Source of the DNA: Pandoraea communis
GTDB taxonomy: Bacteria; Pseudomonadota; Gammaproteobacteria; Burkholderiales; Burkholderiaceae
NCBI RefSeq assembly: GCF_902459745.1
Contig: NZ_CABPSJ010000003.1
Span: forward strand, 620,001 to 684,000
DNA length: 64,000 bases
Reading direction: 5' to 3'
A program made the translations under genes and the position numbers. The notes beneath the pieces are model-generated. The model saw only the letters and a list, made by a program, of their open reading frames with translations, did no database searches and was not told the origin of the DNA. Position 1 is the first letter of the stretch. Every line of letters begins with the position of its first letter. Positions 2,459 through 17,980 of this stretch are shown piece after piece.

Positions 2459-3271
2459 ATGCAAAGACAAGCAACAAAGGTCGGGATCGCAGTGCTGGGT
2501 ACGGTTGGCAAGACGGTGGCCGCCGCAATCGATCAGGGTGTGCCGGGCGTTAGCCTGGTGGGCGCAGCAGCGCGCAACACGGAGGCGGCGCGGGCGTGGC
2601 TCGCGCAACTGGACAGCAGGCCGCGCCTGATGTCCTTCGAGGAAATGGCGCAGGAGTGCGACGTCGTCGTCGAGTGCGCGCCGGCGGCCCTGCTGCCCGA
2701 TATCGTCGAACCGGCCCTGCGTGCCGGCAAGACGGTTGTTGTGCTCAGTTGCGGTGCGCTGCTGGCCCGCCCGGACCTGATTGATCTCGCACGCGAGACG
2801 GGGGGGCATATTCAGGTGCCAACCGGTGCCTTGCTCGGCCTCGATGCGGTGACCGCAGCGGCGGAGGGCAAGATCTCATCGGTCCGGATGATTACCCGCA
2901 AGCCCGTGAAGGGTCTGGTTGGGGCGCCGTTCCTTGAGGAAAACAAGATCGACATCAGCGACATCCAGGCGCCGATGCAGATCTTCGCCGGTACAGCTCG
3001 TGAGGCGGCAGTGGGTTTCCCCGCCAACCTCAACGTGGCGGTGGCGCTTTCGCTGGCGGGTATTGGCCCGGATGAGACGCGGCTCGAGATCTGGGCAGAT
3101 CCGGCATTGACGCGGAACACCCATACGATTGTGGTCGACTCCGATTCGGCTCGCTTCGAGATGACGATCGAGAACATACCGACAGAAAACCCGAAGACCG
3201 GACGCATCACGGCGCAAAGCGTGCTGGCTGCGCTGCGCAAGATCGGTGCGCCGCTTCGCGTGGGCACCTGA
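2459..3271 (+). CDS. Aspartate-dehydrogenase-like NAD(P)-dependent oxidoreductase
   Basis: 270 aa from ATG 2459; the frame stays open further upstream, but those 39 residues do not look like a Rossmann start, whereas VGIAVLGTVGKTVAAAI directly after this ATG does. Family hallmarks of L-aspartate dehydrogenase (NadX/DUF108) are present: the GRKP-like TRKP, the segment AGTAREAA, FPANLNVAVALSLAG, a DP...NTH segment carrying the catalytic His, and the NPKT motif near the end. True AspDH makes iminoaspartate for NAD synthesis. Here the gene is the first of a ring-cleavage operon, so it more likely acts on an amino or imino acid (or semialdehyde) of the aromatic pathway. The exact reaction is unknown. 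Confidence 0.8.
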   Translation: MQRQATKVGIAVLGTVGKTVAAAIDQGVPGVSLVGAAARNTEAARAWLAQLDSRPRLMSFEEMAQECDVVVECAPAALLPDIVEPALRAGKTVVVLSCGALLARPDLIDLARETGGHIQVPTGALLGLDAVTAAAEGKISSVRMITRKPVKGLVGAPFLEENKIDISDIQAPMQIFAGTAREAAVGFPANLNVAVALSLAGIGPDETRLEIWADPALTRNTHTIVVDSDSARFEMTIENIPTENPKTGRITAQSVLAALRKIGAPLRVGT

Positions 3272-3284
3272 GGAGGCTTGCTCC

Positions 3285-3560
3285 ATGAGACCTCCCGTCG
3301 AACTTCACCGCCTCATTTCTGCGGCGCTCCGAGACAGCGACCTGACGGCCCGGCTTCGTGCAAACCCGGGCGAAGTGTACGCGGCCTATTGTGTACCGGA
3401 CTGGCAGCAGGCTCTGCTGGGTTCAGATATTTCCCTGGCCATGGAGCAGATTGGTGTTCATCCGAATCTGCGCTTCAAGTTTCTCGCGCTGCAGGGACTG
3501 CTTCGGCTGAAGTCCGTCTCGGTTGCACCTTTTCTCGACTCGCTGAAAGAACGCCACTGA
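3285..3560 (+). CDS. LigA-like small subunit of class III extradiol dioxygenase
   Basis: 91 aa, starting at ATG 3285 behind a perfect AGGAGG (3271-3276) that overlaps the end of the preceding gene. Composition and pattern (LHRLISAALRDSDLTARLRANPG...VYAAYCV, then a second helical segment) match the all-helical LigA fold that packs on LigB-type catalytic subunits. It is shorter than LigA of protocatechuate 4,5-dioxygenase and closer in size to the small CarBa-type subunits of the carbazole pathway. It sits 9 bp before the catalytic subunit, as expected for a two-subunit enzyme. Confidence 0.8.
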   Translation: MRPPVELHRLISAALRDSDLTARLRANPGEVYAAYCVPDWQQALLGSDISLAMEQIGVHPNLRFKFLALQGLLRLKSVSVAPFLDSLKERH

Positions 3561-3569
3561 AGGAAAGCC

Positions 3570-4394
3570 ATGGGACAAATCGTCGGTGTAGCGGCTACCT
3601 CGCATACGTTCGGTACAACGGAGGATGCTCCGGAGACCGTGGAACGAGTGAGTGCCGGCATGGCGGAGATCGGGCGGGCGATCGCCGATAGTCGTCCGGA
3701 TGTTCTGGTGATTGCATCGAGCGATCACCTGAACAACTTCACCCTGGATGCGCAGATCGCATTGGCGGTGGGGATTGCTGACGAGTACCAGCCGCTCGGT
3801 GATATGGGGGTGCCGCGAACACCTTTGCGTGGCAATCGCGAGTTCGGTGCGGGCTTTGCCGAATTCTGTGCGGAAGTTGGTTTCGATCTCACGCCGGTCG
3901 AGAACATCCTCCCCGACCACGGCATTGCATTCCCTAATGCGTTCAGCAACCCGGACGGGCGGGCCGCACTGGTGCCGCTTTATTTGAATACCGTGATGTC
4001 GCCGACGCCATCTTGCGCCCGTGGATATGCATTGGGCCTGGCGTTGCGGCGATTCGTGCAGACGCGCCGTCCGGAAGCGGAGCGGGTGGCAGTCATCGGC
4101 AGCGGAGGGTTGTCGCACTGGGTCTGCCATCCCCGTTCAGGCGAGGTCAACGAGGCGTGGGACCGGCGCGTGATCGCCAGCATGATCTCTGGCCAGGGCG
4201 CTGAACTCGCAGGGCTCACGCGATCCGACATTCTTGAGGAGGGCGGCAACGGGGGGCTCGAAATTGCCGCCTGGGCATTTGCGGCGGGTGTGGCGGGAAA
4301 TGCGACCGGCCGCGAGATTTACTACGAGCCGCTGACTTCGTGGTGGACGGGCATGGGCGGAGTATTGATGAACCTCGACAGCGAGCTCGCCTGA
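3570..4394 (+). CDS. LigB-type class III extradiol ring-cleavage dioxygenase, catalytic subunit
   Basis: 274 aa. Iron ligands can be placed by analogy to LigB/MhpB: His12 (TSHTFG), His53 (SSDHLNNF) and Glu231 (GLEIAAWAF). The two acid/base histidines of MhpB have counterparts at His117 (LPDHGIAFP) and His183 (GSGGLSHW). All key residues are intact, so it should open a catechol-type ring next to the hydroxyl pair using Fe(II) and O2. Partner is the LigA-like subunit just upstream; product would feed the hydrolase downstream. The order small subunit - catalytic subunit - hydrolase is that of carBa-carBb-carC; the actual catechol is not known. A GGAAAGCC site precedes the ATG. Confidence 0.9.
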   Translation: MGQIVGVAATSHTFGTTEDAPETVERVSAGMAEIGRAIADSRPDVLVIASSDHLNNFTLDAQIALAVGIADEYQPLGDMGVPRTPLRGNREFGAGFAEFCAEVGFDLTPVENILPDHGIAFPNAFSNPDGRAALVPLYLNTVMSPTPSCARGYALGLALRRFVQTRRPEAERVAVIGSGGLSHWVCHPRSGEVNEAWDRRVIASMISGQGAELAGLTRSDILEEGGNGGLEIAAWAFAAGVAGNATGREIYYEPLTSWWTGMGGVLMNLDSELA

Positions 4395-4428
4395 TGGTCG
4401 GTACAAGCGAGGGATTTATTTTCTGGAC

Positions 4429-5280
4429 ATGAATGCGATGAATGAACTGAAACTGCCAGCCTGGGCCGAGAGCGCTTCCCGAGCGATCACCGTGGACGGG
4501 ATCGAGACACATTACTTTGAACTCGGCAGCGGGCCGCCCCTGATCCTGATCCACGGCGGTGGTCCGGGCGCGGACAGTTGGGGCAACTGGCATGGGTGCT
4601 TGCAGGAATATGCGAAGAACTTCCGGGTCATCGCGTACGACATGCCGGGCTTCGGGCGCTCGTCCAAACCGTCGCCGGAGCTTTACCCATATGATCAGGC
4701 GAGCCGCAACCGGCATCTGATCGGCCTTATCGAGGCGCTCAAGCTGGCTCCCGTCAACCTGATCGGCAATTCGATGGGGGGGGCGACTTCACTAGGCGTG
4801 TGCATCGAGCGTGCGGATCTGGTCGACAAGCTGATTCTCATGGGCAGCGCAGGACTCGCGGTCAATAATCCGGACCCGGGCGCCAAGGAGATCCTGAAGC
4901 AGTATGACTACACGCTCGGGGCGATGCGAGCGGTGATGGAGACTCTGACCGGATCCCGGTTCAAGGTGGAGGAGCATGTGTTGCAATACCGGCATGCTCT
5001 GATGCAGGACCCGGCCGCCCAAGCGGCGATTGTCAGGATCGTTCGCTCGGACCTGAGCTACCCCGAGGAGCGCATCGCAAGCGTCACGACACCGACGCTC
5101 GTGGTAGGCGGGAAGGAGGACAAGATCGCAGTGCCTGCGCGAAATTTCCGCTATCTCGAACTGATCGAAAACTCGTGGGGCTTTTTCATTCCGCACGCGG
5201 GTCACTGGGTCATGCTGGAGGCGCCCAAAGTGTTCGTCGGCGTGACGACGAAGTTCCTGCTCGAGAACTGGGCGGAATAG
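4429..5280 (+). CDS. Alpha/beta hydrolase, meta-cleavage-product (C-C bond) hydrolase
   Basis: 283 aa, typical length for BphD/MhpC/CarC enzymes. The oxyanion segment LIHGGGPGADSWGNW (about residues 40-54) is characteristic of meta-cleavage-product hydrolases. Catalytic triad: Ser115 in GNSMGG, Asp231 in GGKEDKIAVP, His259 in HAGHW. It would split a 2-hydroxy-6-oxo-hexadienoate-type product into 2-hydroxypenta-2,4-dienoate and a carboxylic acid. The start could also be ATG 4438; neither has a strong ribosome site. It ends the operon; a strong terminator follows within 30 bp. Confidence 0.88.
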   Translation: MNAMNELKLPAWAESASRAITVDGIETHYFELGSGPPLILIHGGGPGADSWGNWHGCLQEYAKNFRVIAYDMPGFGRSSKPSPELYPYDQASRNRHLIGLIEALKLAPVNLIGNSMGGATSLGVCIERADLVDKLILMGSAGLAVNNPDPGAKEILKQYDYTLGAMRAVMETLTGSRFKVEEHVLQYRHALMQDPAAQAAIVRIVRSDLSYPEERIASVTTPTLVVGGKEDKIAVPARNFRYLELIENSWGFFIPHAGHWVMLEAPKVFVGVTTKFLLENWAE

Positions 5281-5308
5281 AACGGCTTAGGCCGGATACG
5301 ACAGCCCG

Positions 5309-5345
5309 CGCCGTCATCCCTTCAAGGGGATGGCGGCGTTTTTTT
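5309..5345 (+). terminator. Intrinsic terminator of the ring-cleavage operon
   Basis: Arms 5309-5320 and 5327-5338 pair over 12 positions (one T-G wobble) around a 6-base loop, followed by seven T. It acts on the forward strand only; the reverse strand has no T-run. Confidence 0.88.
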
Positions 5346-5360
5346 GCATTGAAGGGCGCG

Positions 5361-6317
5361 TCAGAGCAGGAACGGCAGATCCTCGCTGCTGGCCGTGGCA
5401 ATGGTCCCCGGCGTCCAGTCCTTGTTGACGTACAACTGCATCACGAGTCCGTCGGCATCCTCGACGCAGACCGCGTGACGCGATGCGTGATTCACGTCAC
5501 GGACGACTTTCCCGCCGAATTCGGCGACACCTTCCACCGCGGCCCGAAGATCTTCCTCCGACCAGACTTCCACGCCGACGTGACGTAGGCCGGGGGTGAC
5601 CCGTTCGTCGCGGATCAGTGCGATGTCACCGGTACTCACCGTCCCCGCCAGCAGTACCGAGGTGCCATCCCGGCTGCTGAAGAACGGCTGCAGGCCGGCC
5701 ACCTCGGTATAGAACCGGAACATGGCTGCGAAATCCCGCGTGACCAGTGCCATGTGGGTGACGCGTTTGCCGTGGATCAGCGTGTCCGCAAGGCGTTTGA
5801 GGTTCGGGTTCGGGTTGTAGAGGTGCCGCGTGTCGGGCACGTTCGTCTCGCCAGGCACCCACTTCGGCTTTTGCTTGACGATAATTCCCTTGCGCGCTTC
5901 TTCCCAGTTTTCTACCACGTCGGCATAGAACTCAACCTCGTTTCCGTCCGGATCCTTCAGGTAGATCGAGTGGGCGACGTCGTGGTCGGCCGGGCCGATG
6001 AACTGGATGCCGGCAGCAAGTGCCGCCTTGTATGCGTGGACGAGATTTGCCTCCGAGTCAACCTCGAAAGCCAGGTGGTTCAGGCCCGGCCGTTGCCCCG
6101 CTTTCGCGTATTTGCTCCGAATGTCGACGAGCGCGAAGTCGTGATAGGTGTTGCCGTTGCTCAGGAAACTGGCGAGGTTATCCGGTTGCCGGTAAGCCTC
6201 GGCAAAGCCGAATACATTGCGATAGAAATCGCACGCCTTGACATAGTCGGAGACAAACATATTCGCGTGCGCGAGACGGCGTGAAGAAAACAGTTTCTGG
6301 GAGACGTCGCTATCCAT
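5361..6317 (-). CDS. Two-domain VOC protein, type I extradiol dioxygenase-like
   Basis: 318 aa with two VOC modules (about residues 12-135 and 183-300), the layout of catechol 2,3-dioxygenase-type enzymes. The N-terminal module carries a full ligand set (His17 in LAHANMFV, His81 in LNHLAFEV, Glu129 in NEVEFYAD). In the C-terminal module the set is His188, His246 and Gln294 instead of Glu. In classical type I extradiols the C-terminal module holds the iron, so the active site here may be in the N-terminal module, or the protein may be a lyase/isomerase. It is transcribed opposite to its neighbours. A second ring-opening enzyme or a stereospecific hydrolase/isomerase role are both possible. Confidence 0.78.
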   Translation of the reverse strand: MDSDVSQKLFSSRRLAHANMFVSDYVKACDFYRNVFGFAEAYRQPDNLASFLSNGNTYHDFALVDIRSKYAKAGQRPGLNHLAFEVDSEANLVHAYKAALAAGIQFIGPADHDVAHSIYLKDPDGNEVEFYADVVENWEEARKGIIVKQKPKWVPGETNVPDTRHLYNPNPNLKRLADTLIHGKRVTHMALVTRDFAAMFRFYTEVAGLQPFFSSRDGTSVLLAGTVSTGDIALIRDERVTPGLRHVGVEVWSEEDLRAAVEGVAEFGGKVVRDVNHASRHAVCVEDADGLVMQLYVNKDWTPGTIATASSEDLPFLL

Positions 6318-6393
6318 AAAGAAATACCCGTAGATGAGTGGAGGAGCAGATGGCCGGATTGGTCAGCAGCCTGCTCTCCCAACCCTAATCTTT

Positions 6394-6435
6394 CGTGTCC
6401 GACACGTACAAACGATTTATGCGCGTATTGCGCAT
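6394..6435. promoter_or_regulatory. Two perfect palindromes in a divergent promoter region
   Basis: Between the reverse VOC gene and the forward FAD oxidoreductase gene (6318-6593, 276 bp). The first palindrome is CGTGTC-C-GACACG (6394-6406). The second is ATGCGC-GTATT-GCGCAT (6419-6435), whose outer bases fit the T-N11-A shape of LysR boxes. They lie about 80-120 bp upstream of the VOC start. Likely operators, regulator unknown. Confidence 0.5.
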
Positions 6436-6593: not shown

Positions 6594-8033
6594 ATGAATT
6601 TATCAAATTACGTCCTCATGCCGGAATACTCCAACTCCTTCTCTGTCTCGAGTGACTCTCGCGTAATTGTCGTGGGTGCGGGCCTGACTGGTCTGTCTGC
6701 GGCGATCGAGCTTGCGGAAGCCGGCGTACCGGTCCTGGTCGTAGAAAAGGGCGATGTCGGCGGTGAACAGAGTCAGTTTGCCCTGGGATGGGTACGAACA
6801 ACGGGCCGCCCACCGGTGGAAATTCCACTAAGCCTGCTTAACCGCAGCCGCTTCGATGCGTTGATGCCGGATGCCTCCAGGCTTGCGTACGGCGTGCTGT
6901 TTTGCGCGAAGGACGAGACTCAACTCACGAGGCTTGAGCAATGGGCAGATGGTGCGGCGCGGTACGGCGTGAAGACGCGCCTGCTTGACGCTGCGGATAC
7001 GGCCGCACGCCTGCCAGGTTGCGCCACGGGAACGGTGGGCGGCCTTCTGACTGAAGTCGACACATCGATCGATCCACGACACCTCGTGCAGGTGCTCGTC
7101 GCGCGCGCGGCAGCGCTGGGTGTCGAGATTCGTACCCGCTGTGCGGTACGCGCACTCGACACGGCAGCGGGGGAAGTCCGCGGCGTTCTCACTGAGAGGG
7201 GAATCGAGCGCGGTGCGTCCGTCGTTCTGGCAACCGGAGCATGGACACGTCTGATGCTGCGCGATGCGGGGTACACATTGCCGTCAGTGAAGGTACGTTC
7301 CTCTCTCGTACGTATTCGCACTGCCGCGCATTTACCGCCCGGGTGCATTGGCTGCGCCGGTGTGGCAGGCGTTGGCTATCGCGCGGCGCCGGACGGCACC
7401 TTTGTCGTCGGGCTGGAGAACAACAACCGGCTGGAGGTGACGCCGGATGCATTGCGTTTCGCGTCGCGATATCTGCCAATGTGGTGGGCGCATCGCGGGG
7501 AGATCAAACCGTCGTTCGGGCGTGCGTTCTTCGACGAACTGGGTGTTGGCCGTGCGCGCCATCAGGATCAGACCTCTGTCTACGAACAAAAACGCATCTT
7601 GCGCCCCGAGCCCGGGCAAGCGTTGACCCAACTGACGATAAGCCGTTTTGCCGAACTTTTCCCATCGCTGGGCGATATCGAACTGCTTGAGAGCTGGGCT
7701 GGCTACCTTGACATGACGCCTGACGGTTTGCCGGTGATTTCCGCGGCTGAGCGAACGCCTGGGCTATTCGTCGCCACCGGATTGAACGGTAGCGGACTCG
7801 GTACCGGTCTCGCAGCGGGCAGACTCATCGCCTCCCTCGTGACGGGGCGCATGCCGGAAACAGACATTTCCCCGTTCCGGCTCGCACGGTGGTCCCGCGA
7901 TGGGCCGCACGGAGTAGATGACCCCGAGAAACACGCAGCGCAATCAACGCAGAGCACAACTGGATTCCCCGATGTTGAGGGACTATCCGACCCGACTCCG
8001 GCGCAGCCACGCACGGAAAAATTACGCCAGTGA
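6594..8033 (+). CDS. FAD-dependent oxidoreductase, D-amino-acid dehydrogenase/DAO type (1)
   Basis: About 479 aa from ATG 6594; ATG 6618 and TTG 6549 are also possible and none has a clear ribosome site. The FAD-binding loop VIVVGAGLTGLSAAIELAEAG starts the Rossmann fold. The C-terminal FAD signature MTPDGLPVISAAE...GLFVATGLNGSGLGTGLAAG is typical of the DAO superfamily (DadA, sarcosine/glycine oxidase). It should oxidise a C-N bond of an amino acid or secondary amine. After the domain there is an atypical polar tail of about 45 residues rich in Ser, Thr, Gln and Pro. It is first gene of the run that continues with porin and permease. Confidence 0.85.
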   Translation: MNLSNYVLMPEYSNSFSVSSDSRVIVVGAGLTGLSAAIELAEAGVPVLVVEKGDVGGEQSQFALGWVRTTGRPPVEIPLSLLNRSRFDALMPDASRLAYGVLFCAKDETQLTRLEQWADGAARYGVKTRLLDAADTAARLPGCATGTVGGLLTEVDTSIDPRHLVQVLVARAAALGVEIRTRCAVRALDTAAGEVRGVLTERGIERGASVVLATGAWTRLMLRDAGYTLPSVKVRSSLVRIRTAAHLPPGCIGCAGVAGVGYRAAPDGTFVVGLENNNRLEVTPDALRFASRYLPMWWAHRGEIKPSFGRAFFDELGVGRARHQDQTSVYEQKRILRPEPGQALTQLTISRFAELFPSLGDIELLESWAGYLDMTPDGLPVISAAERTPGLFVATGLNGSGLGTGLAAGRLIASLVTGRMPETDISPFRLARWSRDGPHGVDDPEKHAAQSTQSTTGFPDVEGLSDPTPAQPRTEKLRQ

Positions 8034-8075: not shown

Positions 8076-9260
8076 ATGCAAACAAAACATATTCGGAGAA
8101 ACCTGTCCATCAGGTGCGCGATGGCGAAAACCGGCGTTGCCACGGCAGCGATCCTGGGCTGCCTGCCAACAGTGCATGCACAGAGCAGTGTCGATCTCTA
8201 CGGCAGTGTGATGAGTGGTGTGATCTGGACGAACAACGTGGCAGGTGGCAAGAGCACCGGCATGGCCGAAGGGCCGAGCCGTTGGGGCCTGCGAGGTAAG
8301 GAAGATCTGGGCGGTGGCATGAAGTCCGTGTTTCAACTGGAAAGCGGCTTCGCGCCCAGCACGGGTCAGTCGTTTCAGGGCGGACGTCTTTTCGGGCGCC
8401 AGGCTTATGTCGGGTTGAGCAATGACGCGTGGGGCACACTGACGCTTGGCCGGCAATACGACATGTCCGCCAGTTGGCTCGCGCAGACGAGTGCGACGTA
8501 TCGCTGGAACGGCTACTTTGCGCATCCGGGCGACAACGACAACTTCAACTACCAGTTTCGCGTGAACAATGGGGCGAAGTATGTGAGCCCGGATCTGAAC
8601 GGTTTGCAGTTGGGCGCGATGTATAGCTTTGGCGGCGTAGCGGGCAGCTTCGGTAACCAGAGCGCGATGAGCTTCGGCGCGAAGTACGAGAGCGGGCCCG
8701 CGAAGATCCAAGCTGCGTATTTCCACATGAATCACCCGGCGCTCGCGGCTTCCGAGGGGAACTGGAGCACGATCCTGTTTCCGCAGATCTCGCCGACTTC
8801 GCCACTCAATAACAACGCACTGAACCCGTCGAGCATGGACATTTACGGCATTGGTGGGACGTATCAGATCGGCAAGACGACGCTCGGCCTGCTGTGGAGT
8901 CACAGCGACTACAGGAAGCTCGGCGATACCACGGGCGGTCTCGCTGATGCGAACGTGCGCTTCGACAACATCGAAGCCAACGTCGCATACAACGTCACGC
9001 CGCAGGTGCAAGTTGTGAGTGCCTACACGTACACCATGGGCAAGGTTAACCAGACGGGCTTCGCGCCACAGTATCACCAGATCAATGCGGGCGTGAACTA
9101 CTTCCTCTCGAAGCGGACCATCCTGTATCTCGCCGGTATTTATCAGCGTGCCGCCGGTGACGCAACCAACGCCAACATCGAATGTGCGGGCTCGTCATGC
9201 GAGGCGAGCAGCTCAAAGAACCAGGTTTCGGTGCTCAGCGGAATTTTCCATACTTTCTGA
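8076..9260 (+). CDS. Outer-membrane porin, Burkholderia type
   Basis: 394 aa. A signal peptide of about 35 residues ends in VHA before QSSVDLYGSVMSG, the usual mature N-terminus of 16-strand trimeric porins in this order. The sequence has the alternating beta-strand pattern, WGLRGKEDLGGG near residue 70, and a final strand ending in Phe (GIFHTF), needed for BAM-dependent assembly. It gives a diffusion route for small polar solutes. Being placed between an amine oxidoreductase and an amino-acid-type permease suggests it admits the pathway substrate. Confidence 0.93.
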   Translation: MQTKHIRRNLSIRCAMAKTGVATAAILGCLPTVHAQSSVDLYGSVMSGVIWTNNVAGGKSTGMAEGPSRWGLRGKEDLGGGMKSVFQLESGFAPSTGQSFQGGRLFGRQAYVGLSNDAWGTLTLGRQYDMSASWLAQTSATYRWNGYFAHPGDNDNFNYQFRVNNGAKYVSPDLNGLQLGAMYSFGGVAGSFGNQSAMSFGAKYESGPAKIQAAYFHMNHPALAASEGNWSTILFPQISPTSPLNNNALNPSSMDIYGIGGTYQIGKTTLGLLWSHSDYRKLGDTTGGLADANVRFDNIEANVAYNVTPQVQVVSAYTYTMGKVNQTGFAPQYHQINAGVNYFLSKRTILYLAGIYQRAAGDATNANIECAGSSCEASSSKNQVSVLSGIFHTF

Positions 9261-9306: not shown

Positions 9307-10782
9307 ATGTCTTCCACTGCGTTTGAGAACGTCGAAGAGACGGGTTCGTTGAAGAAAACATTCAGTTCGATGTCGCTCTTCACGCTGTCGTTCGGCGTGA
9401 TGGTCGGTTCCGCCTGGATTGTCATCATAGGTGACTGGTTTGGAAAGGCAGGTCCGCTTGGCGCAATCGTCGGGCTCTCTGCCGCAGCGCTGATGATGTG
9501 TATCGTGTGTCTCGTCTATGCCGAACTCGCTGCACGCATTCCGGCTTCGGGCGGCGAGATCGTCTACACATTCGAGGCGTTTGGCGCATCAAGCGCGTTC
9601 TGGGTCTCGTGGATCTACACGATGCCGATTCTCACGGTCACCGCGTTCGAAGGCATTGCGCTCACGTGGATGGTCAATACTCTCGTGCCGCAGTTCGGCA
9701 GTACCGTGCTCTACCACGTACTCGGCCACGATGTGTCGGTGGGGCAGGTGGGCCTGGGCGCAGCTATTACCGTATTCATGATGGTGCAGAACTACTTTGG
9801 CGCGAAGTTTGCGGCGGGTTCACAGAAGCTGCTCACCGTTTCGTTCCTGCTGATTGCACTAGGCGCCGTCTTCATTGCCCTTTCGAAGGGGAGTGTCGCG
9901 AATCTTGCGCCACTCTTTTACTCGGCCCACCCGGGCGCGCATTGGTGGTCGGGGGCACTCGCGATTTTCTCGTCGGGCCTCATCTGGTTCTCAGGGTTCC
10001 AGTCGATTCCGCCCGTGATCGAAGAACGTAACGACAATGTGTCGTTTGCTCTGGTCGCTCGGGTAATGGTGATCTCGATCCTGTTCGCTGCGGTGTTCTA
10101 TGCACTTGTGATTGTCGCAGTCGGCATGGCACAGCCGTGGATCGGTATGCTAAAGACTGACATGCTTACGGCCACTGCCTTTGGCAGCCTGACACCGGGC
10201 GGCTGGCTGGCGAAGGCCGTGCTGGTGGCAGGTACGATTTCCATTCTCAAGGTCTGGAACGGCGCATTCGTATGGGCAACGCGTGTGATTCTGGTGCAAT
10301 CACGCGCACGCTTCCTTCCTGCCTCGCTAAGCAGGGTGCATCCGAAGTACGGCACGCCGACTCGTGCTGTGTGGCTCGTCGGCCTCGTGAGCTTCGCGGG
10401 CATCTGCCTCGGACCGGGGGCGATCCTGCCGATTCTCGATGCGGCCGCTGTGTGCGTCGGCATCGTCATCGCGAGCGCGCCGATTGCACTATTGGTGCTG
10501 CGTATGCGTGACAAACGCGCCTCGCATGCCAATGCTCCGGCCTGGAGCGTACCCGGTGGTGTGCCGACTATCGTGATCGCACTCGTGAGTACGCTTTCGC
10601 TTTCGCTTGTCGCTTGCGTGCAGCCCTTCATGCTTTCGAATGGCGGAATCCCGCTCTCGTGGCAGATTCTTGCCGTATGGGGCGTGATCGGCGTCGTGCG
10701 CTGGGTTGCGATGCACAGGACGTTCAGCGACAGTAGCGTCGCAAGGCGCGCGTTGCTTGGCGCGACCGAGGTGGCGAACTGA
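9307..10782 (+). CDS. APC-family amino acid/amine permease
   Basis: 491 aa from ATG 9307, with an AAAGGA ribosome site 6 bp upstream; the longer open frame upstream lies inside the porin gene and was rejected. About 12 hydrophobic segments are visible. The first contains SFGVMVGSAWIVIIGDWF, resembling the substrate/ion-binding break of TM1 in the amino acid-polyamine-organocation family. Likely imports an amino acid or amine across the inner membrane. The position in the cluster suggests the substrate carries an amino group. Confidence 0.88.
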   Translation: MSSTAFENVEETGSLKKTFSSMSLFTLSFGVMVGSAWIVIIGDWFGKAGPLGAIVGLSAAALMMCIVCLVYAELAARIPASGGEIVYTFEAFGASSAFWVSWIYTMPILTVTAFEGIALTWMVNTLVPQFGSTVLYHVLGHDVSVGQVGLGAAITVFMMVQNYFGAKFAAGSQKLLTVSFLLIALGAVFIALSKGSVANLAPLFYSAHPGAHWWSGALAIFSSGLIWFSGFQSIPPVIEERNDNVSFALVARVMVISILFAAVFYALVIVAVGMAQPWIGMLKTDMLTATAFGSLTPGGWLAKAVLVAGTISILKVWNGAFVWATRVILVQSRARFLPASLSRVHPKYGTPTRAVWLVGLVSFAGICLGPGAILPILDAAAVCVGIVIASAPIALLVLRMRDKRASHANAPAWSVPGGVPTIVIALVSTLSLSLVACVQPFMLSNGGIPLSWQILAVWGVIGVVRWVAMHRTFSDSSVARRALLGATEVAN

Positions 10783-10893: not shown

Positions 10894-11934
10894 ATGAAAT
10901 ACGATGAAGCTCTGCCGTCGATGATGCGCGCGGTGCGCCTCGACGAAGTGGGTCCGCCAGAGAATCTGCGCGTTGTCGATCGTCCGGTCCCTTCGGTCGG
11001 GCCACGTGACGTGCTGATCCGCACCGCTCTGGCCGGCATGATCTACGCTGATGCCGAAGCGCGGAAAGGCACCTATTTCAATGCCACGCCTCTTCCCTGG
11101 TTCCCTGGTCGCGAGGTTGCCGGTACCGTTGTGGCGTGCGGCGAGGAGGTGGAAGGATACGCGCCGGGTGACCGCGTGATGGCACTGGTGCTCGCTGGCG
11201 GCTGCTACGCGGAATACGTGCTCGCATCGCCGCACGAACACGTGTCCGACAATGGCGTGCGCGCGCCGGGCGCGGATATCGTGAAGTTGCCGGATAACGT
11301 CGCGTTCGAACAGGGGCTCGTTTATCTCGTCAACTTCCGTCTTGCTCATCTTGTCGTACACGCGCTTGCGAACGTGCCGCCGGGCGCCAGCATTGCGATT
11401 CACGGCGCGGCGGGTGGTATGGGCACGATGATCACGCAGATTGCCGCTTCCCTGGGTTGTGCGATAACGGCGCTGTGTCGGGGGAGCGAAGAAGTCGCAT
11501 TCTGTTTGGAAAACGGTGCAACGCGTGCTATCGATACACTGGGTTGCGACTATGTCGGGGCGGTGCTCGATGCAACCGATGGAGAGGGTGTCGATTTCTC
11601 CTTCAATGGTGTGGGTGGCCCGACCATCAACCGGGATCCGCTGATCGTCAAGCCGTTTGGCGAAGTGATTCTCTATGGTTACGTGGCGGGCAAGACTCCC
11701 CTGGAGCCGTTCGACGTCGATAAAACTTGGGCGCTGAAGCTCTTTTCGGCAACCGACTATCTGAGCACGCCTCATTTTCTGGCGGCAACCGAGGCGATGC
11801 TGGAATGGCTCGCCACGCGCCCGCTACTGGCGTTGGGAGAAGTATTTCCGATGTCGTGCGTCGCAGACGCGCATCGTGCGCTGGAAGCCGGAAGGCTGCT
11901 GTGCAAGCTCGGCCTGCGCCCAGACGCGTCATGA
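10894..11934 (+). CDS. Zinc-type alcohol dehydrogenase / quinone oxidoreductase family protein
   Basis: 346 aa from ATG 10894. GroES-like N-terminal domain (MRAVRLDEVGPPENLRVVDRPVPSVGPRDVLIR) and a Rossmann domain with the loop IHGAAGGMGTMITQIAASLG. The structural and catalytic zinc cysteines of classical ADH are not evident, so it fits NADPH:quinone oxidoreductase-like enzymes. A GTG at 10792 preceded by GGAAAC would add 34 residues and has a better ribosome site; the conserved fold only begins later, so the start is uncertain. Its stop overlaps the next start (ATGA), which shows translational coupling. Confidence 0.83.
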   Translation: MKYDEALPSMMRAVRLDEVGPPENLRVVDRPVPSVGPRDVLIRTALAGMIYADAEARKGTYFNATPLPWFPGREVAGTVVACGEEVEGYAPGDRVMALVLAGGCYAEYVLASPHEHVSDNGVRAPGADIVKLPDNVAFEQGLVYLVNFRLAHLVVHALANVPPGASIAIHGAAGGMGTMITQIAASLGCAITALCRGSEEVAFCLENGATRAIDTLGCDYVGAVLDATDGEGVDFSFNGVGGPTINRDPLIVKPFGEVILYGYVAGKTPLEPFDVDKTWALKLFSATDYLSTPHFLAATEAMLEWLATRPLLALGEVFPMSCVADAHRALEAGRLLCKLGLRPDAS

Positions 11935-13058
11935 GCGTCACAACGCCTTACCGTCGCGCCGACGGCCCGAAGACGGTCACGGTGGTGGGCGCAGGCATCA
12001 TCGGCATTTCGATTGCGCTGCACCTCGCGCAGCGCGGTGTTCATGTCACGGTGCTTGACCAGAGGGATAGTATTTCGCCCTGCACCGATGGTGCCTTTGC
12101 GATGTTGATTGCCACGCACCCCGATGGTCCTCCCGAGTTCAATACGCTGTACGGCCACGCCATCGATGCATGGCATCGCTTCGATGACGAATTCGACGGC
12201 GCACTTGACGTGCGCTGGGAAGGCGCGCTGATGTGGGCTGAGGAAGGCGACGCCGCGAGGCATCTGGGCGAACAGTATGAGCGGCTTTCACAATGGGGCA
12301 GCGCGGTCGAGCGCATCGACGCCCGGAATTTCGCGTCGTATTGCGACGGTGTGGAGACCGGGCCGGTTACCGCAGGCTACTGCTCAACACGTCATGGCGT
12401 GGTGGACCCGGCGCACGTATGGAAAATCATGCGTGCCCGCTGCATCGCGCTCGGTGTGGCGTTTGTGACTCGCACGGTTAGCGAGATCAACGTGCTTGCG
12501 AAAGGCTGCGGGTTGCCACATGCCTATGTAGAGGGCCTGCCAGCGCCTGAAGTCCTCGTGCTTGCGGCAGGTGAGGGTACGGCTGCACTGGCTGCAAGCC
12601 AGGGAGCCGAAGTCGCCTATACGATCGCTTCAGGGAGTCTGGCGCACAGTAAGCCCATACCTCGGCGTGCGCTGCCGGCACTTGTCGGCCCCAGAATTTC
12701 GGTGAAACAGAACGCAGACGGTCGCATCGTCGCAGGGCTCGATTACGCGCCGAATGCCGCTTGCGATGACACGAGCGAGGCCTATGGTACGGCGTTGCTT
12801 GCAGAGGCGCGCCGGTTGTTGCCCGGTTTGCCGGAGCTCGAACTTCAACGGGTCACGCACGGTCGTGTGCCGATCCCGCGGGACACCCAACCGATTGCGG
12901 GCTTTCTGGACAACATCGCCAATTGTTACGTGGCTGTCATGATGAGTGGCATTACGATGGCCCCTCTGATGGGGCAACTGATCGCTGATGAAATCGTCTT
13001 CGGGCGCCGCCATGCGCTTCTCGCTCCGTATGCACCGTCGCGTTTCAAATCCGAATGA
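11931..13058 (+). CDS. FAD-dependent oxidoreductase, DAO type (2)
   Basis: 375 aa, starting at the ATG that overlaps the upstream stop codon. The FAD loop VTVVGAGIIGISIALHLAQRG is near residue 17, and the distal DAO motif region (VPIPRDTQPIAGFLDNIANCYVAVMMSGITMAPLMGQLIADEI) closes the protein. It belongs to the glycine/D-amino-acid oxidase superfamily like the gene at 6594 but is shorter and clearly diverged. Two such enzymes in one run point to sequential or alternative oxidation of amine groups. Substrate not identifiable. Confidence 0.85.
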   Translation: MSVTTPYRRADGPKTVTVVGAGIIGISIALHLAQRGVHVTVLDQRDSISPCTDGAFAMLIATHPDGPPEFNTLYGHAIDAWHRFDDEFDGALDVRWEGALMWAEEGDAARHLGEQYERLSQWGSAVERIDARNFASYCDGVETGPVTAGYCSTRHGVVDPAHVWKIMRARCIALGVAFVTRTVSEINVLAKGCGLPHAYVEGLPAPEVLVLAAGEGTAALAASQGAEVAYTIASGSLAHSKPIPRRALPALVGPRISVKQNADGRIVAGLDYAPNAACDDTSEAYGTALLAEARRLLPGLPELELQRVTHGRVPIPRDTQPIAGFLDNIANCYVAVMMSGITMAPLMGQLIADEIVFGRRHALLAPYAPSRFKSE

Positions 13059-13121
13059 TTTCCGGCTACGCGGGGCGTTCGTAAGCGGACCGCGTACCGG
13101 CATCACGAACGAAGGAATCCC

Positions 13122-13913
13122 ATGCCATATTTTCAGACAGGCGGCAGTAGCATTTATTACGAGACTCACGGCAGCGGCAAGCCGGTTGTCATGTTGCACG
13201 GGGTCGGTGGCAACCACGCCAGTTGGTTCTACCAGTTGGCGCAGTGGGCTGAGCGCTTCCAGTTGATTACTTTTGACGCTCGTGGATTCGGCAGGTCGAC
13301 AGATGCGGAATCACTCGGACGCAGCGCATTTACCGATGATCTCACCCGGCTGCTCGATCACCTGGGAATCGCGCGTGCAGCGTTGGTTGCCCAGTCGATG
13401 GGGGGCGGGACCGCAGTTGACTTCACATGCCGCTTCCCCGAGCGTGTGGAAGCGCTGGTGCTCGCCGATACGCTTGTGTGGCTTGATCCGCCGCCAGAGA
13501 TGGTCACAGAGTTCTCGGCTGTACAGGAGAGGACGCGCAACCTCAACCAGCTCGAACGCGTCCTTGGCGCGACGTTCCGTGCCGCACAGCCTGCGCTCAG
13601 CGAACTGTATCTTCAGATTGCAGGTTTCAACCGCTATACAGTCAAGACGCTTACCGGCACTCAGACCCGCTACCGACCGCGGGCGCTGGCGCTAACCGGC
13701 GTCCCGACGCTGTTCGTGGCCGGCGAGGAAGACGTGCTTTTTCCCCCAGGCGTGATCCGCCAGGCATGGCAGGAAGTACCCGGGGCGGATTGGATAGTGC
13801 TCGACAGGGCAGGTCACTCTGCCTATTTCGAAGCACCCGAGTCCTTCAATAAGCAGGTTGGCGACTGGCTGGAAGCACACACGGACAATCACGAGCCGGC
13901 CATGCGTACATGA
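13122..13913 (+). CDS. Alpha/beta hydrolase
   Basis: 263 aa with a clear GAAGGA ribosome site. HGVGGNHASW forms the oxyanion region, the nucleophile is Ser92 in VAQSMGGG, the acid lies in GEEDVLFPP and the His in RAGHSAYFE. The GVGG (not GGGPGA) loop sets it apart from the meta-cleavage-product hydrolase at 4429. It resembles the 3-oxoadipate enol-lactonase/esterase branch. It could hydrolyse an ester, lactone or amide in the pathway. Last gene of its run; a gap with a new promoter region follows. Confidence 0.87.
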   Translation: MPYFQTGGSSIYYETHGSGKPVVMLHGVGGNHASWFYQLAQWAERFQLITFDARGFGRSTDAESLGRSAFTDDLTRLLDHLGIARAALVAQSMGGGTAVDFTCRFPERVEALVLADTLVWLDPPPEMVTEFSAVQERTRNLNQLERVLGATFRAAQPALSELYLQIAGFNRYTVKTLTGTQTRYRPRALALTGVPTLFVAGEEDVLFPPGVIRQAWQEVPGADWIVLDRAGHSAYFEAPESFNKQVGDWLEAHTDNHEPAMRT

Positions 13914-14271
13914 TTTCCACGCCTTTCGTGCAGGCAGGCGGGGCATTGCAGTCGAGCCTGCTGTCTACCCCGGCACTCTCCGGAACACGCCGGCAACTCG
14001 CCGTAGCAACGAGGATACGCCACGACTTCTGATCGTCGTGCAGGGCGTGGTACGTGAGGCGGATCGGGAAGGACTCCGGTCCGCTTTGCTATTTTGTCGT
14101 GCCGATCCGATGCATGAGTCTCATGCATTCATATCCTTCGAAGAAATCGTTTGTAGCGTATTTATCAGCCACTTATTTTCGAGGTTGATGTATGCAGTCC
14201 ACGTTTCAATAAAGTCATTGCATACAGTACACAGTCAATCATGAATCGTCCTCATATCGCCAGGAATGAAC
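13914..14271. other. 358-bp gap upstream of the Rieske operon
   Basis: No convincing gene. It holds a 6-bp inverted repeat (14021-14026 / 14035-14040) without a T-run, and near its end the two copies of the shared 14-bp motif listed separately. The last 100 bp are AT-richer than the flanks, as expected for a promoter. Confidence 0.6.
14189..14232 (+). promoter_or_regulatory. Putative tandem operator, shared motif copies B' and B
   Basis: TGTATGCAGTCCAC at 14189-14202 and TGCATACAGTACAC at 14219-14232, same orientation, 30 bp apart (about three helical turns). They match the copy at 2251-2264. They sit 40-83 bp upstream of the Rieske oxygenase start, a usual place for a regulator controlling this promoter. 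Confidence 0.55.
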
Positions 14272-15432
14272 ATGGAATCTCAAAACAGTTTCGTCGATGC
14301 AGCTCTGCTCAAACGCGTGCCGCGGTGGAGCAAGTATCTGGAAGCCAAGCTCGGTTTTCGCAATCACTGGTATCCGGTGCGCCTCTCTCACGATATTGAA
14401 GAAGCGCAGGTGGTGTCGGCCACCGTGTGCGGTGAGGAGATCCTCCTGAAGCGGGTGGATGGCAAGGTAAAAGCGATCCGTGACCGTTGCCTGCATCGAG
14501 GGGTGAAATTCTCGGAAAAGGTGGAGTGTTACACCAAAGATACGATTACCTGCTGGTATCACGGCTTCACCTACAAGTGGGACAACGGCAAGCTCTGCGA
14601 TATCTTGGCCGCGCCCGACAGCAAGGCAATCGGGCGGCGGGGGATCAAGTCCTATCCCGTGCAGGAAGCGAAGGGACTGATTTTCGTCTTCGTGGGAGAC
14701 GACGACGTCAAGGTGCCGCCGCTGGCCGAGGATGTTCCGCCGACTTTTCTCGACGAGGACATGAGCATTCACGGTGCGATCTACGACGTCGATTCGAACT
14801 GGCGCGTGGGGGCAGAAAACGGCTTCGACGGTCTGCACGTCTACATCCACCGTACGGCTGAGCTGGTGTCCAATACACAGCGCTCGCTGCCCATCGGTCA
14901 CCTGTCCGATTCGGCCAAGGTGGAAATCATCGATGCGCAGGGGGGGCCGAAGGGGGTCTACGACCTGTTCGCCAACCACGTGAGCGTCTGGGAAGGGAAG
15001 GTCGATGGAAAAACCGTCATCACGGGTACCAAGCGCGTGTCGGACAAACCCACGCGTACCACCGCAGCATCGATCTGGCTGCCGTGTGTACTGCGCGTAG
15101 ACAACTTCCCCGACCAGGAGATCACGCAGTTTGAATGGTATGTGCCTGTGTCCGCAGACAAACACCTGTATGTGATGACCGTCGGCAAGCGGGTGTCGTC
15201 TGAAGAGGATCGTGCAGCATTCGAGCACGAATTTCAGTCCCGTTGGAAGCCGATCGGCTTCGAGGGTTTCAACGCACAGGACATCACCGCCCGTGTCGCG
15301 CTCCAGAAGTACTACAAGAACGACAGTTCCTGGCTCGACGAGATGTTGATCGAAGGCGACGCTCCGATTATCAGATGGCGCGAGCTGTGCCAGCAGCATG
15401 CGCGTGGCGTGCAAAAGCCCGAACACATGTGA
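14272..15432 (+). CDS. Rieske non-heme iron oxygenase alpha subunit, CarAa-like
   Basis: 386 aa. ATG 14272 is chosen over ATG 14266 because CAGGA lies 6 bp before it. Rieske cluster ligands: Cys73, His75 (CLHRG), Cys94, His97 (CWYHG). Mononuclear iron ligands: His189, His193 and Asp337; Asp186 (ENGFDGLH) is the bridging Asp. The segments KLGFRNHWYPV, DRCLHRGV, TITCWYH, PVQEAKG and FEWYVPV are close to my memory of CarAa, the carbazole 1,9a-dioxygenase oxygenase, which is about the same length (384 aa) and works as a homotrimer without a beta subunit. None is seen here either. It starts a catabolic pathway by hydroxylating an aromatic ring; the real substrate is not proven. Confidence 0.92.
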   Translation: MESQNSFVDAALLKRVPRWSKYLEAKLGFRNHWYPVRLSHDIEEAQVVSATVCGEEILLKRVDGKVKAIRDRCLHRGVKFSEKVECYTKDTITCWYHGFTYKWDNGKLCDILAAPDSKAIGRRGIKSYPVQEAKGLIFVFVGDDDVKVPPLAEDVPPTFLDEDMSIHGAIYDVDSNWRVGAENGFDGLHVYIHRTAELVSNTQRSLPIGHLSDSAKVEIIDAQGGPKGVYDLFANHVSVWEGKVDGKTVITGTKRVSDKPTRTTAASIWLPCVLRVDNFPDQEITQFEWYVPVSADKHLYVMTVGKRVSSEEDRAAFEHEFQSRWKPIGFEGFNAQDITARVALQKYYKNDSSWLDEMLIEGDAPIIRWRELCQQHARGVQKPEHM

Positions 15433-15452
15433 CCGATCGGGAGATGAATGGA

Positions 15453-15773
15453 ATGGCCGAAAAAATTTTTCTGTGCCGAAAAAGCGAAATGGGCGACGGC
15501 TCAATGCGCCAGGTCTGTCCGCGCGGTATCGATGGCGAACTGGCCGTGTACCGGGTCAACGGCTCGATCTACGTGACTGACGATCTGTGCACGCACGGGA
15601 TGGTTGCGCTGACTGGCGGCGACCTTGAGGGGACCACCGTGTATTGCCCGTTGCATGGCGGCGCCTTCGACGTTTGTACGGGGAAAGCCACGGAGAAACC
15701 CTGCACCACGCCGCTCAGGACGTACGAGGTCGTGGTCGAGAACGACGACATCTATTGTCTGTACGGAGAGTAA
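15453..15773 (+). CDS. Rieske-type [2Fe-2S] ferredoxin, CarAc-like
   Basis: 106 aa. Cluster ligands Cys46, His48 (CTHG), Cys65 and His68 (CPLHGG) are all present. The segments AVYRV, CTHGM, HGGAFDVCTG and PCTTPL resemble CarAc of the carbazole dioxygenase system in length and sequence. ATG 15453 is preferred (GGGAG 9 bp upstream); ATG 15444 would add three residues. It would carry electrons to the oxygenase encoded 20 bp upstream. No ferredoxin reductase gene is in the window, so the reductase must be elsewhere. Confidence 0.9.
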   Translation: MAEKIFLCRKSEMGDGSMRQVCPRGIDGELAVYRVNGSIYVTDDLCTHGMVALTGGDLEGTTVYCPLHGGAFDVCTGKATEKPCTTPLRTYEVVVENDDIYCLYGE

Positions 15774-15799
15774 CGGGATCCAGGTCCCAGGAGCACATC

Positions 15800-17074
15800 A
15801 TGTTTACTAGAGAAGATAATGAGCGTCTGTGTCGGGTCGGTCCCGGCACTCCCATGGGCGAGGCCTTTCGCCGCTTCTGGATCCCGTTCCTGCTGCCCGA
15901 AGAACTGGCCGCCGACGGCGCGCCGGTGCGTGTGCGTCTGCTGGGCGAGAATCTGATCGCTTTTCGCGACACCGAGGGCAAGCTCGGTCTGCTTGACCGG
16001 TACTGCCCGCATCGGCGGGTCGACCTGTTCTTTGGGCGCAATGAGCAGTGCGGGCTGCGTTGCCCGTATCACGGTTGGAAGTTCGATACTGACGGCACAA
16101 TCGTCGAAATGCCGGCCGAGCCGGAAAACTCGCAGATGCTGCAGGACACGCGCATCAAGCACTATCCGGTCATCGAGTGGGGCGGCGTGATCTGGGCGTA
16201 CATGGGCGATCCGGCGCACAAACCCGCGCAACCCCCGCTGATGGAGTGGGCCACCGTGCCTTCGACGCACCGCTATATCAGCAAGCGCCTGCAGCGCACG
16301 AACTACGCCCAGGGTGTCGAGGGGGGAATCGATTCGAGCCACGTTGGCATCCTGCACAGTCTCCTGGATCCGGACAAGAAGGATCTGCCATTCCGGCAGA
16401 AGCAGGTGTCGCCGCTGTCTGCCGTGCCATACCTGGCAATGGACACGGCGCCGAAGTTCTTCGTGCGCCCTACACGCCACGGCATGACCATTGGTGCGCG
16501 GCGCAATGCGTCGGAGATCGAGTATTACTGGCGCATCACGCAGTTTCTGCTGCCGTTCTACACGATGATCGCGCCAAGCAGGAACGATGGCACGGTCATG
16601 GGGCATTCGTGGACGCCGATCGACGACTACAACTGCTGGGTGTTCACCATGACCTGGAATGGTGAGCGCCCGTTGTCCGCAGACGAGCTGGACTACGGTG
16701 CAGTGCACTCGGACACGAAGGACGATGGCAGCTACGAGCCGCTCGTTGGCGCGGCCGACGACTACGGGCTCGACCGTGAGGTGCAGCGCCTGCGCAGTAC
16801 GACCGGCATTGAGGGAATCGGGATGCAGGACACCGCCGTGCAGGAGAGCATGGGGCCGATCGTCGACCGTTCGCTGGAAAACCTTGGCTCAGGCGACGCC
16901 GCGATCGTGCGCTTCCGACGCCTGCTGCTTGGCATTGCCGACGAGTTGGAAACGACGGGAGAAGTCGCAGTGGCGAAGCAGGCGGATCTGTACAAGGTGC
17001 GGTCCGCCGGGGTCGTGCTGCCGCACGGTGTGGACTTCCAGGAAGGTTCGGCTCGGTACACCGAAGTGAAATAG
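15800..17074 (+). CDS. Rieske oxygenase, phthalate 4,5-dioxygenase type
   Basis: 424 aa from ATG 15800 with CAGGAG 7 bp upstream. Starts with the family signature MFTREDNERLCRVGPGTPMG. Rieske ligands Cys69, His71 (CPHR), Cys88, His91 (CPYHGW). Iron-site residues Asp178, His181 and His186 in the segment GIDSSHVGILH. This class (OphA2/Pht3-like) usually forms a homomultimer fed by a flavin/ferredoxin reductase; none is encoded nearby. It may hydroxylate or demethylate a different intermediate from the one used by the CarAa-like enzyme. Substrate unknown. Confidence 0.9.
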   Translation: MFTREDNERLCRVGPGTPMGEAFRRFWIPFLLPEELAADGAPVRVRLLGENLIAFRDTEGKLGLLDRYCPHRRVDLFFGRNEQCGLRCPYHGWKFDTDGTIVEMPAEPENSQMLQDTRIKHYPVIEWGGVIWAYMGDPAHKPAQPPLMEWATVPSTHRYISKRLQRTNYAQGVEGGIDSSHVGILHSLLDPDKKDLPFRQKQVSPLSAVPYLAMDTAPKFFVRPTRHGMTIGARRNASEIEYYWRITQFLLPFYTMIAPSRNDGTVMGHSWTPIDDYNCWVFTMTWNGERPLSADELDYGAVHSDTKDDGSYEPLVGAADDYGLDREVQRLRSTTGIEGIGMQDTAVQESMGPIVDRSLENLGSGDAAIVRFRRLLLGIADELETTGEVAVAKQADLYKVRSAGVVLPHGVDFQEGSARYTEVK

Positions 17075-17191
17075 CAGACGCGTTCAGGCTTTCGAGCCAG
17101 TTCGTGGTTCATCATGTTTGAAGGTCAGGTACGCCGGCAGCTTTGCGTCAACGGCCGGTTACCTGATGCGGTATGACAAGGAGACTTCCTG

Positions 17192-17980
17192 ATGTCCGAC
17201 CTAATCTCGCAAATCGCCGCGCGCCTGCGGCATGCGCAACAAACGCGTGAGCCGATCGAGCCGGTGCGCGGCGAGATCGCGATTGACGACATCGAGACGG
17301 CATACGCGGTACAGCAGGCGAACGTTGATCTGCGTGTCGCGAACGGCGAGCGCATCGTCGGCCGCAAGATCGGCCTCACATCGCTCGCGGTGCAAAAACA
17401 GTTGGGCGTGGGCCAGCCCGACTTCGGCACATTGTTCGCTGGCATGGCATATGGCGATAGTCAGCCGATGCCGCTTCCGGCGCTGATCCAGCCGAAAATC
17501 GAAGCCGAGATTGCATTGGTGCTTGAGGGCGATCTCACGGACGAGAAGCATACATTTATCGACATCCTGCGCGCGAGTGCTTACGCGCTTCCCGCGATCG
17601 AAGTCGTCGACAGCCGCATCCGGGACTGGGACATCCGCTTCGTCGATACCGTGGCGGACAACGCGTCGAGCGCGTTTTTTGTGCTCGGCAGCCGGCCAGT
17701 GCCTTTGTCGCGATTGGACCTGAGCGCGTGCGCGATGACGCTGGAGTGCGGCGGTGAGGTGCTGTCCCGCGGCGCGGGCGGCGCGTGCCTTGGCAATCCG
17801 CTTAACGCAGCCGTCTGGCTTGCAGACCGCATGGTGCAGCTTGGAACTCCGCTGCGTGCGGGCGATGTCGTGATGACCGGTGCGCTTGGCCCGATGGTGG
17901 TCGTCAAGGAGGCGGGCACGTTCACTGCGCAGATCGAAGGGCTCGGCAGCGTCCGCGCGACGTTCGACGCCGGGTCATGA
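17192..17980 (+). CDS. 2-oxopent-4-dienoate (2-hydroxypenta-2,4-dienoate) hydratase family
   Basis: 262 aa, as long as MhpD/BphH/XylJ. It has the fumarylacetoacetase-fold hydratase signatures GRKIGLTS near residue 60, PKIEAEIALVL (metal-binding Glu residues), PAIEVVDSRI and a C-terminal GDVVMTGALGP. With Mg2+ or Mn2+ it adds water to 2-hydroxypenta-2,4-dienoate, the product of the hydrolase at 4429. A GGAG site precedes the ATG. The next steps (aldolase, acylating aldehyde dehydrogenase) are not in this window. Confidence 0.92.
   Translation: MSDLISQIAARLRHAQQTREPIEPVRGEIAIDDIETAYAVQQANVDLRVANGERIVGRKIGLTSLAVQKQLGVGQPDFGTLFAGMAYGDSQPMPLPALIQPKIEAEIALVLEGDLTDEKHTFIDILRASAYALPAIEVVDSRIRDWDIRFVDTVADNASSAFFVLGSRPVPLSRLDLSACAMTLECGGEVLSRGAGGACLGNPLNAAVWLADRMVQLGTPLRAGDVVMTGALGPMVVVKEAGTFTAQIEGLGSVRATFDAGS

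Follow-up and report, generated by a model that had tools for sequence, protein, structure and literature searches.

Gene content of the locus

The window analysed here is a 64,000-nucleotide stretch of Pandoraea communis DNA (contig NZ_CABPSJ010000003.1, positions 620,001 to 684,000; contig C3 of the 5.7 Mb host genome). In this window, a putative catabolic cluster extending to position 17980 combines genes resembling those of carbazole degradation with genes for a second Rieske oxygenase and a predicted second extradiol dioxygenase. None of the 17 genes read from the window contains an internal stop. All of the genes named in a preliminary description of the locus are present and intact, but its list omitted an aspartate dehydrogenase (AspDH)-like gene, a two-domain VOC gene, a second hydrolase gene, and the second Rieske oxygenase gene, as well as a ferredoxin reductase gene that lies outside the window.

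The CarAa-like Rieske oxygenase (14266..15432; genes lie on the plus strand unless stated otherwise) is 52% identical to KA1 CarAa and 47% identical to pCAR1 CarAa. It possesses a Rieske domain (Pfam Rieske, 3e-17) and a ring hydroxylase domain of the homotrimeric type (Pfam Aromatic_hydrox, 3.1e-66), the combination expected of the oxygenase of carbazole dioxygenase (CARDO). Directly downstream lies the gene for a CarAc-like Rieske ferredoxin (15453..15773), with 46% identity to pCAR1 CarAc. The CarBa-like small subunit (3285..3560) shows 28% identity to pCAR1 CarBa (E = 5e-8) and only 23% to KA1 CarBa (E = 0.003), and the frame overlapping its gene in another reading frame has no Pfam match. 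It is followed by a CarBb-like extradiol dioxygenase of the LigB family (3570..4394; Pfam LigB, 2e-34), 41-43% identical to the CarBb proteins of pCAR1 and KA1, and by a CarC-like meta-cleavage product hydrolase (4429..5280), 40-45% identical to CarC, with 1j1i (E = 1e-62) and 4lxg as its best PDB matches. The CarBa-CarBb-CarC trio that marks car clusters is therefore present, although the CarBa match is weak. A 2-oxopent-4-enoate hydratase (17192..17980; NCBIfam PRK11342, 357 bits against a cut-off of 350) is 46% identical to CarD, and contig C10 encodes an acetaldehyde dehydrogenase and an aldolase, the latter 87% identical to one in the P. lycopersici cluster. The CarC-like hydrolase suggests a second aryl group attached directly to the diol ring, and the hydratase, together with the aldolase and acetaldehyde dehydrogenase on C10, suggests a benzo ring without substituents.

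The CarAa-like oxygenase forms a separate clade with an altered pocket

We compared the CarAa-like protein with its relatives in a tree of 31 rows, which lacks Nocardioides IC177 and further CARDO types. The 19 cluster-type CarAa rows form one clade (support 100/100), set apart from the different clade, as drawn with support of 98/93, of the three rows of CARDO type: pCAR1, KA1, and a putative CARDO from an Acinetobacter plasmid.

The residue comparison used 90 rows: 24 from the clade (19 distinct loci and five repeats) and 66 others of the CarAa family. The numbering is that of CarAa from strain J3, assumed to run 6 behind the positions of the pCAR1 record, and the alignment places H183, H187, and D333, the iron ligands of carbazole dioxygenase, as expected. 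His at 204 and Arg at 258 occur in 24/24 clade rows, as compared to Phe and Val in the three carbazole-type references, and H204 is found in none of the 66 non-clade rows. Positions 259 and 262, which presumably also line the pocket, are T or S and A or H in the clade (F204H, V258R, A259T/S, I262A/H). The window protein thus has H, R, T, and A at 204, 258, 259, and 262, while the three CARDO-type references have F, V, A, and I. All 90 rows retain H183, H187, and D333, as well as E284, Y296, and R337, and hence these residues are not CARDO-specific. In PMC3423008, E284, Y296, and R337 are named as carbazole dioxygenase residues, and residues 202-214 are reported to shift toward the pocket entrance upon carbazole binding.

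With its separate clade and changed pocket residues, this enzyme is unlikely to use plain carbazole as its substrate, which bears out the "not plain carbazole" of the preliminary description. The presence of H204 and R258 in place of Phe and Val suggests an acidic substrate, on the assumption that the two side chains face the pocket.

A second oxygenase and a predicted second ring-cleavage enzyme

The second Rieske oxygenase (15800..17074; Pfam LigXa_C and Rieske) resembles isophthalate dioxygenase, with 9ina as a match (E = 3e-109). The structures of isophthalate dioxygenase are 9INA and 9IOY (PMC12445078), and that paper reports that replacing R234 and H257 abolished its activity. Both of these carboxylate anchors are retained in 15/15 rows of the second oxygenase (two rows being one locus). 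The pocket residues L198, F249, I294, and F333 are not kept, and are V, S, V, and I in the window protein.

The two-domain VOC protein (5361..6317, minus strand) carries a predicted 2-His-1-Glu metal site, H17/H81/E129, in 7/7 rows, and its structural model, of moderate quality (mean predicted local distance difference test score 74.7), has catechol 2,3-dioxygenase (1mpy) as the best fold match. The two-domain fold and the metal site are those of a type I extradiol dioxygenase, the predicted activity of this protein. The second alpha/beta hydrolase (13122..13913) has an invariant S92/D204/H232 in 12 rows.

One module in many genera

The search for relatives yielded 80 loci. Cluster-type CarAa is present in Pandoraea, Paraburkholderia, Caballeronia, Cupriavidus, Variovorax, Herbaspirillum, an Alcaligenaceae strain, Sphingomonas mali, and two alphaproteobacterial metagenome-assembled genomes (MAGs), and the loci in other genera, among them soil and plant-associated bacteria, hold the same gene set in several gene orders. 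The "split" layout of the preliminary description is one layout among several in which this module is found. Sphingomonas mali carries cluster-type CarAa twice (L051 being the second copy), and the Caballeronia arvi cluster (L050) carries an additional AspDH gene and an additional LigB gene (49%).

We examined co-occurrence in 398 Burkholderiaceae genomes (CarAa, E ≤ 1e-90; LigB, E ≤ 1e-45; second oxygenase, at least 68% identity). The CarAa-like, LigB-like, and second-oxygenase genes occur in an identical set of 13/398 genomes, on a single contig in each, and the next best second-oxygenase relative after the group of at least 68% has 52% identity. Identical 13-genome sets would arise by chance with a probability of 1e-24 if the genomes were independent, which they are not. 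The set also recurs in other genera and is more than a chance grouping. Both the linkage of these genes and the joint pathway envisaged in the preliminary description are supported.

The same 13 genomes differ in the second extradiol gene. Three have VOC, the other ten have LigB2 (328 residues; 70-100% identity across its genomes, at least 70% per piece), and none has both. With 3 and 10 of 13 genomes, so complete a separation would arise by chance once in 286 cases. At G429:C111:22382-23363, LigB2 was matched as three overlapping pieces in different frames, reflecting either a broken gene or an assembly error. LigB2 was not found in the window genome at E 1e-20, and G299, which is among the VOC genomes, has a LigB2 relative (35%) elsewhere. 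The CarAa tree groups the three VOC genomes as sisters, so that a single replacement may account for the exchange.

The AspDH-like gene, the remaining genes, and the nitrogen question

The AspDH-like dehydrogenase (2459..3271) scores 404 bits against a cut-off of 253 for NCBIfam PRK13302 and retains the C-terminal motif of the aspartate dehydrogenases in the PDB. Both features place it in the L-aspartate dehydrogenase family. We inspected nine further AspDH contexts, from eight of the 14 cluster-free genomes described below and a second copy in G013. Four of them (L192, L193, L195, and L197, from other Burkholderiaceae) place AspDH with VOC and LysR genes, and three of these four also have the second hydrolase; the CarAa gene is absent from the stretches fetched. 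In L195, AspDH was missed by gene calling and was placed there by the genome search. GhrA-like genes occur in L192 (49%) and L195 (33%), L193 and L197 being short contigs, and amino-acid-type ABC transporter genes lie near AspDH in L192 and L195 according to Pfam and, judged by eye, in L197. In three other contexts (L194, L196, and L201; families tested for L194 only), AspDH stands with SDR, RraA, amidase-type, and allantoinase-like genes. L198 has a different AspDH context, and gene calling gave almost nothing for L199. From these contexts—VOC and hydrolase genes in four of the nine, amidase, SDR, and RraA genes in three—we infer, as a leaning, that the second ring contains nitrogen.

A Bosea plasmid (L209) carries a set similar to that of L194, L196, and L201. 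In these four loci, the allantoinase-like gene encodes PuuE or a polysaccharide deacetylase, ABC transporter genes are also present, and the whole looks like an undescribed pathway for a nitrogen compound.

The cluster contains several other genes. A GhrA-like 2-hydroxyacid dehydrogenase (208..1146) reaches 333 bits for NCBIfam PRK15469, below the cut-off of 403, and relatives with 41-52% identity adjoin CarAa in other clusters. It is followed by the gene for a LysR-family regulator (1165..2187, minus strand). Between the CarC-like and CarAa-like genes lie a DAO-type FAD oxidoreductase (6594..8033; Pfam DAO, 4e-58), a porin (8076..9260), an APC-family permease (9307..10782), an MDR-family oxidoreductase (10924..11934), and another DAO-type FAD oxidoreductase (11931..13058; Pfam DAO, 2e-40). 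The cluster continues to the left of the window, where we found a GntR-type regulator (assigned by homology to family F5, as read by eye), a ferredoxin reductase gene some 0.3-1.5 kb before the window begins, 79% identical to the reductase adjoining the P. terrigena cluster, and, downstream of it, a small VOC gene. The latter encodes 138 residues, starts 217 bases before position 1, and ends within the window (1..199), just before the GhrA-like gene; its homologue in the relatives is family F17. The right edge is formed by tRNA-Leu(cag) (18409-18493), with rnr beyond it.

Proposed pathway

Building on the observed gene content, the catalytic motifs checked, clade, residue changes, co-occurrence, and enzyme swap, we consider it reasonably probable that the genes belong to a single catabolic cluster, whose substrate would be a bridged two-ring aromatic compound that is acidic and probably contains nitrogen. 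A carboxylated, probably N-bridged biaryl is the best reading of the substrate; the reactions and their order are likewise deduced from the genes. The preliminary description had proposed a complete upper meta pathway. The upper meta enzymes are present, but there are probably two ring-cleavage stages, more than an upper meta pathway comprises.

First ring: The CarAa-like oxygenase, supplied with electrons by the ferredoxin reductase and ferredoxin, would dioxygenate the unsubstituted benzo ring at an angular carbon, with His204 and Arg258 holding the carboxylate of the other ring. In a review (PMC10992316), angular attack by carbazole dioxygenase is stated to favour positions adjoining N or O over C. 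The bridge would then open to give a 2,3-dihydroxybiaryl, whose diol ring CarBa/LigB would cleave. The CarC-like hydrolase would split off 2-hydroxypenta-2,4-dienoate, and the other ring would be left as a carboxylated aromatic. The C5 unit would be finished by the window hydratase and subsequently by the aldolase and acetaldehyde dehydrogenase encoded on the other contig.

Second ring: The isophthalate-dioxygenase-like oxygenase would hydroxylate the released aromatic acid, and the VOC extradiol enzyme—the LigB relative in other genomes—would open the ring. Finally, the second hydrolase, the AspDH-like dehydrogenase, and the GhrA-like reductase would process the fragment.

Chemical reasoning leads to one concrete but doubtful candidate class, the beta-carboline carboxylates, which are tryptophan-derived aza-carbazoles and might be degraded by a dedicated bacterial route. 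In such a route, the APC permease would import tetrahydro-beta-carboline-3-carboxylate and the DAO enzymes would aromatise it. CarAa, CarB, and CarC would strip the benzo ring to leave 5-aminopyridine-2,4-dicarboxylate, in which the carboxylates are mutually meta, as an isophthalate-dioxygenase-like enzyme would require. The second oxygenase would release NH3 and CO2 in forming a dihydroxypyridine carboxylate, VOC or LigB2 would open the pyridine ring, the second hydrolase would deformylate what results, and the amino-dicarboxylate would be finished by the AspDH-like and GhrA-like enzymes. Carbolines were not mentioned in the papers listed by the literature searches, which were mostly open-access with few subscription journals. 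If true, this route would, to our knowledge, be the first gene set for complete breakdown of that alkaloid skeleton. We also considered a kynurenate-type cleavage between C8 and C8a and rejected it, because its product would give neither a CarC-type C-C hydrolase nor a pentadienoate hydratase a role.

As a separate observation, a formamidase/acetamidase gene is located just upstream of the Pandoraea anapnoica cluster (L042:2094-3368); it would suit a deformylation, and may be there by chance.

Weighing the alternatives

Several observations weigh against the proposal of a cluster for an acidic, probably nitrogen-containing biaryl. R258 also occurs in 14/66 non-clade CarAa-family rows, and the pocket-facing direction of the R258 and H204 side chains is an assumption. 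Both anchors of the second oxygenase are present in 27/28 non-cluster relatives of at least 42% identity, 9INA included. They therefore indicate an aromatic acid, not which one, and this control weakened their use as proof of a dicarboxylate substrate. The best 50 of 1,935 matches in the structure search with the second hydrolase were generic hydrolases alone. AspDH relatives (E ≤ 1e-45) occur in all 13 cluster genomes and in 14 genomes without the cluster, and the gene therefore has other uses too. Among 18 cluster-type loci surveyed together with flanks of at most 10 kb, DAO-type genes were found in three and the MDR gene in three (in their clusters, a Caulobacteraceae MAG, L053, has an MDR and a DAO gene and a Sphingomonadales MAG, L052, has two DAO genes), while the APC gene occurs only in P. 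terrigena and P. lycopersici among the related loci compared. Because these genes are missing from most related clusters, the nitrogen argument drawn from them is weak: the "nitrogen-bearing" substrate of the preliminary description keeps indirect support, with the AspDH-like gene as the better hint, but its APC/DAO basis varies among loci. The 13 co-occurring genomes are related, eight of them belonging to one genus. Finally, in another Pandoraea, locus L200 (G006:C7:120001-140000) encodes a relative of the second oxygenase (50%) together with proteins resembling LigB2 (35-36%) and an Amidohydro_2 protein, possibly as a dehydrodivanillate-type cluster. Plasmid neighbourhoods of second-oxygenase and AspDH-like relatives gave no clue to the substrate.

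The gene pairing in L200 keeps alive an explanation by O-demethylation, in which a methoxylated lignin-type biaryl acid would be degraded, with the second oxygenase acting as a LigXa-like O-demethylase, LigB2 or VOC as a ring-cleavage enzyme like LigZ, and the CarAa part taking the unsubstituted ring. LigXa, LigZ, and LigY belong to the dehydrodivanillate pathway, whose set the L200 layout resembles, and the Pfam domain of the second oxygenase is itself named LigXa_C. Amidohydro_2 was not found among the window proteins scanned, however, LigB2 is missing from the window genome at the threshold given above, and the AspDH-like enzyme would be left without a role. We regard this explanation as unlikely. 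It is also quite unlikely that the substrate is a carboxylated nitrogen-free tricycle or biaryl, such as a dibenzofuran or fluorenone carboxylate, with the AspDH-like protein acting as a dihydrodiol or semialdehyde dehydrogenase. The same gene set would fit such a compound, the AspDH-like gene directly precedes CarBa, and nitrogen in the substrate is itself inferred; nevertheless, the protein retains the aspartate dehydrogenase motif, and its relatives adjoin amidase and allantoinase-like genes in three of the nine contexts. The preference of angular attack for N or O, as given in PMC10992316, disfavours fluorenone, not dibenzofuran. That the locus represents another kind of cluster for degrading plain carbazole or dibenzofuran is very improbable. 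The identities of CarAa (47-52%), CarBb (41-43%), and CarC (40-45%) to car proteins and the CarBa-CarBb-CarC order would fit it, but we rejected a plain carbazole cluster on the separate clade and the four pocket substitutions; moreover, the second oxygenase, the second extradiol enzyme, and AspDH are not in the pCAR1, pCAR3, and Acinetobacter stretches viewed. We give least credence to two unrelated pathways that are neighbours by chance. Modules of AspDH, VOC, and hydrolase do exist without CarAa, and gene order varies among relatives, but an identical set of 13 genomes holds the CarAa-like, LigB-like, and second-oxygenase genes, always on a single contig, and a single ferredoxin gene lies between both oxygenases.

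Comparison with known systems

The cluster is composed of parts of known kinds, and among the open-access papers listed by the literature searches we found no description of the gene combination, the CarAa clade, or the VOC/LigB2 swap. Since cluster-type CarAa spans many genera, the substrate probably occurs naturally in soil or plants and is not a pollutant. The proposal defines a testable substrate class—acidic bridged biaryls whose second ring would be opened by either of two interchangeable, unrelated enzymes—and the cluster may reveal the origin of carbazole-type angular dioxygenases.

The LigXa/LigZ/LigY system is similar in pairing a related oxygenase with a LigB-family dioxygenase, as in L200, but the window cluster has no Amidohydro_2 among the proteins scanned and VOC instead of LigB2. 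The AspDH-like protein resembles NadX-type aspartate dehydrogenase in its score above the curated cut-off and its retained motif, and differs in being encoded within a ring-cleavage cluster, with its activity predicted only. In the 4-hydroxypyridine kpi pathway of Arthrobacter IN13, according to PMC7356986, a pyridinediol is opened by an amidohydrolase-family protein and then acted upon by an alpha/beta hydrolase; the likeness to the proposed pathway is one of logic only. The second oxygenase is identical to the isophthalate dioxygenase of Comamonas testosteroni KF1 (9INA/9IOY) at 127/293 positions in the compared blocks. It keeps R234, H257, G172, V178, and I246, and differs by F249S, L198V, I294V, F333I, and T175S, residue 249 being variable among orthologues.

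The closest parallel is the car pathway (pCAR1 of Pseudomonas resinovorans and pCAR3 of Novosphingobium KA1), with which the cluster shares a CarAa-type oxygenase, the CarBa/CarBb/CarC order, the hydratase, and a lower meta pathway, and with pCAR1 in particular a Rieske ferredoxin. Unlike in pCAR1, the upstream reductase does not resemble CarAd (E = 0.75); other car types carry other reductases, as noted in PMC10992316. In contrast to the car pathway, the cluster has its own CarAa clade with H204 and R258, to which the second Rieske oxygenase, the second extradiol enzyme, and the AspDH-like and GhrA-like genes are added.

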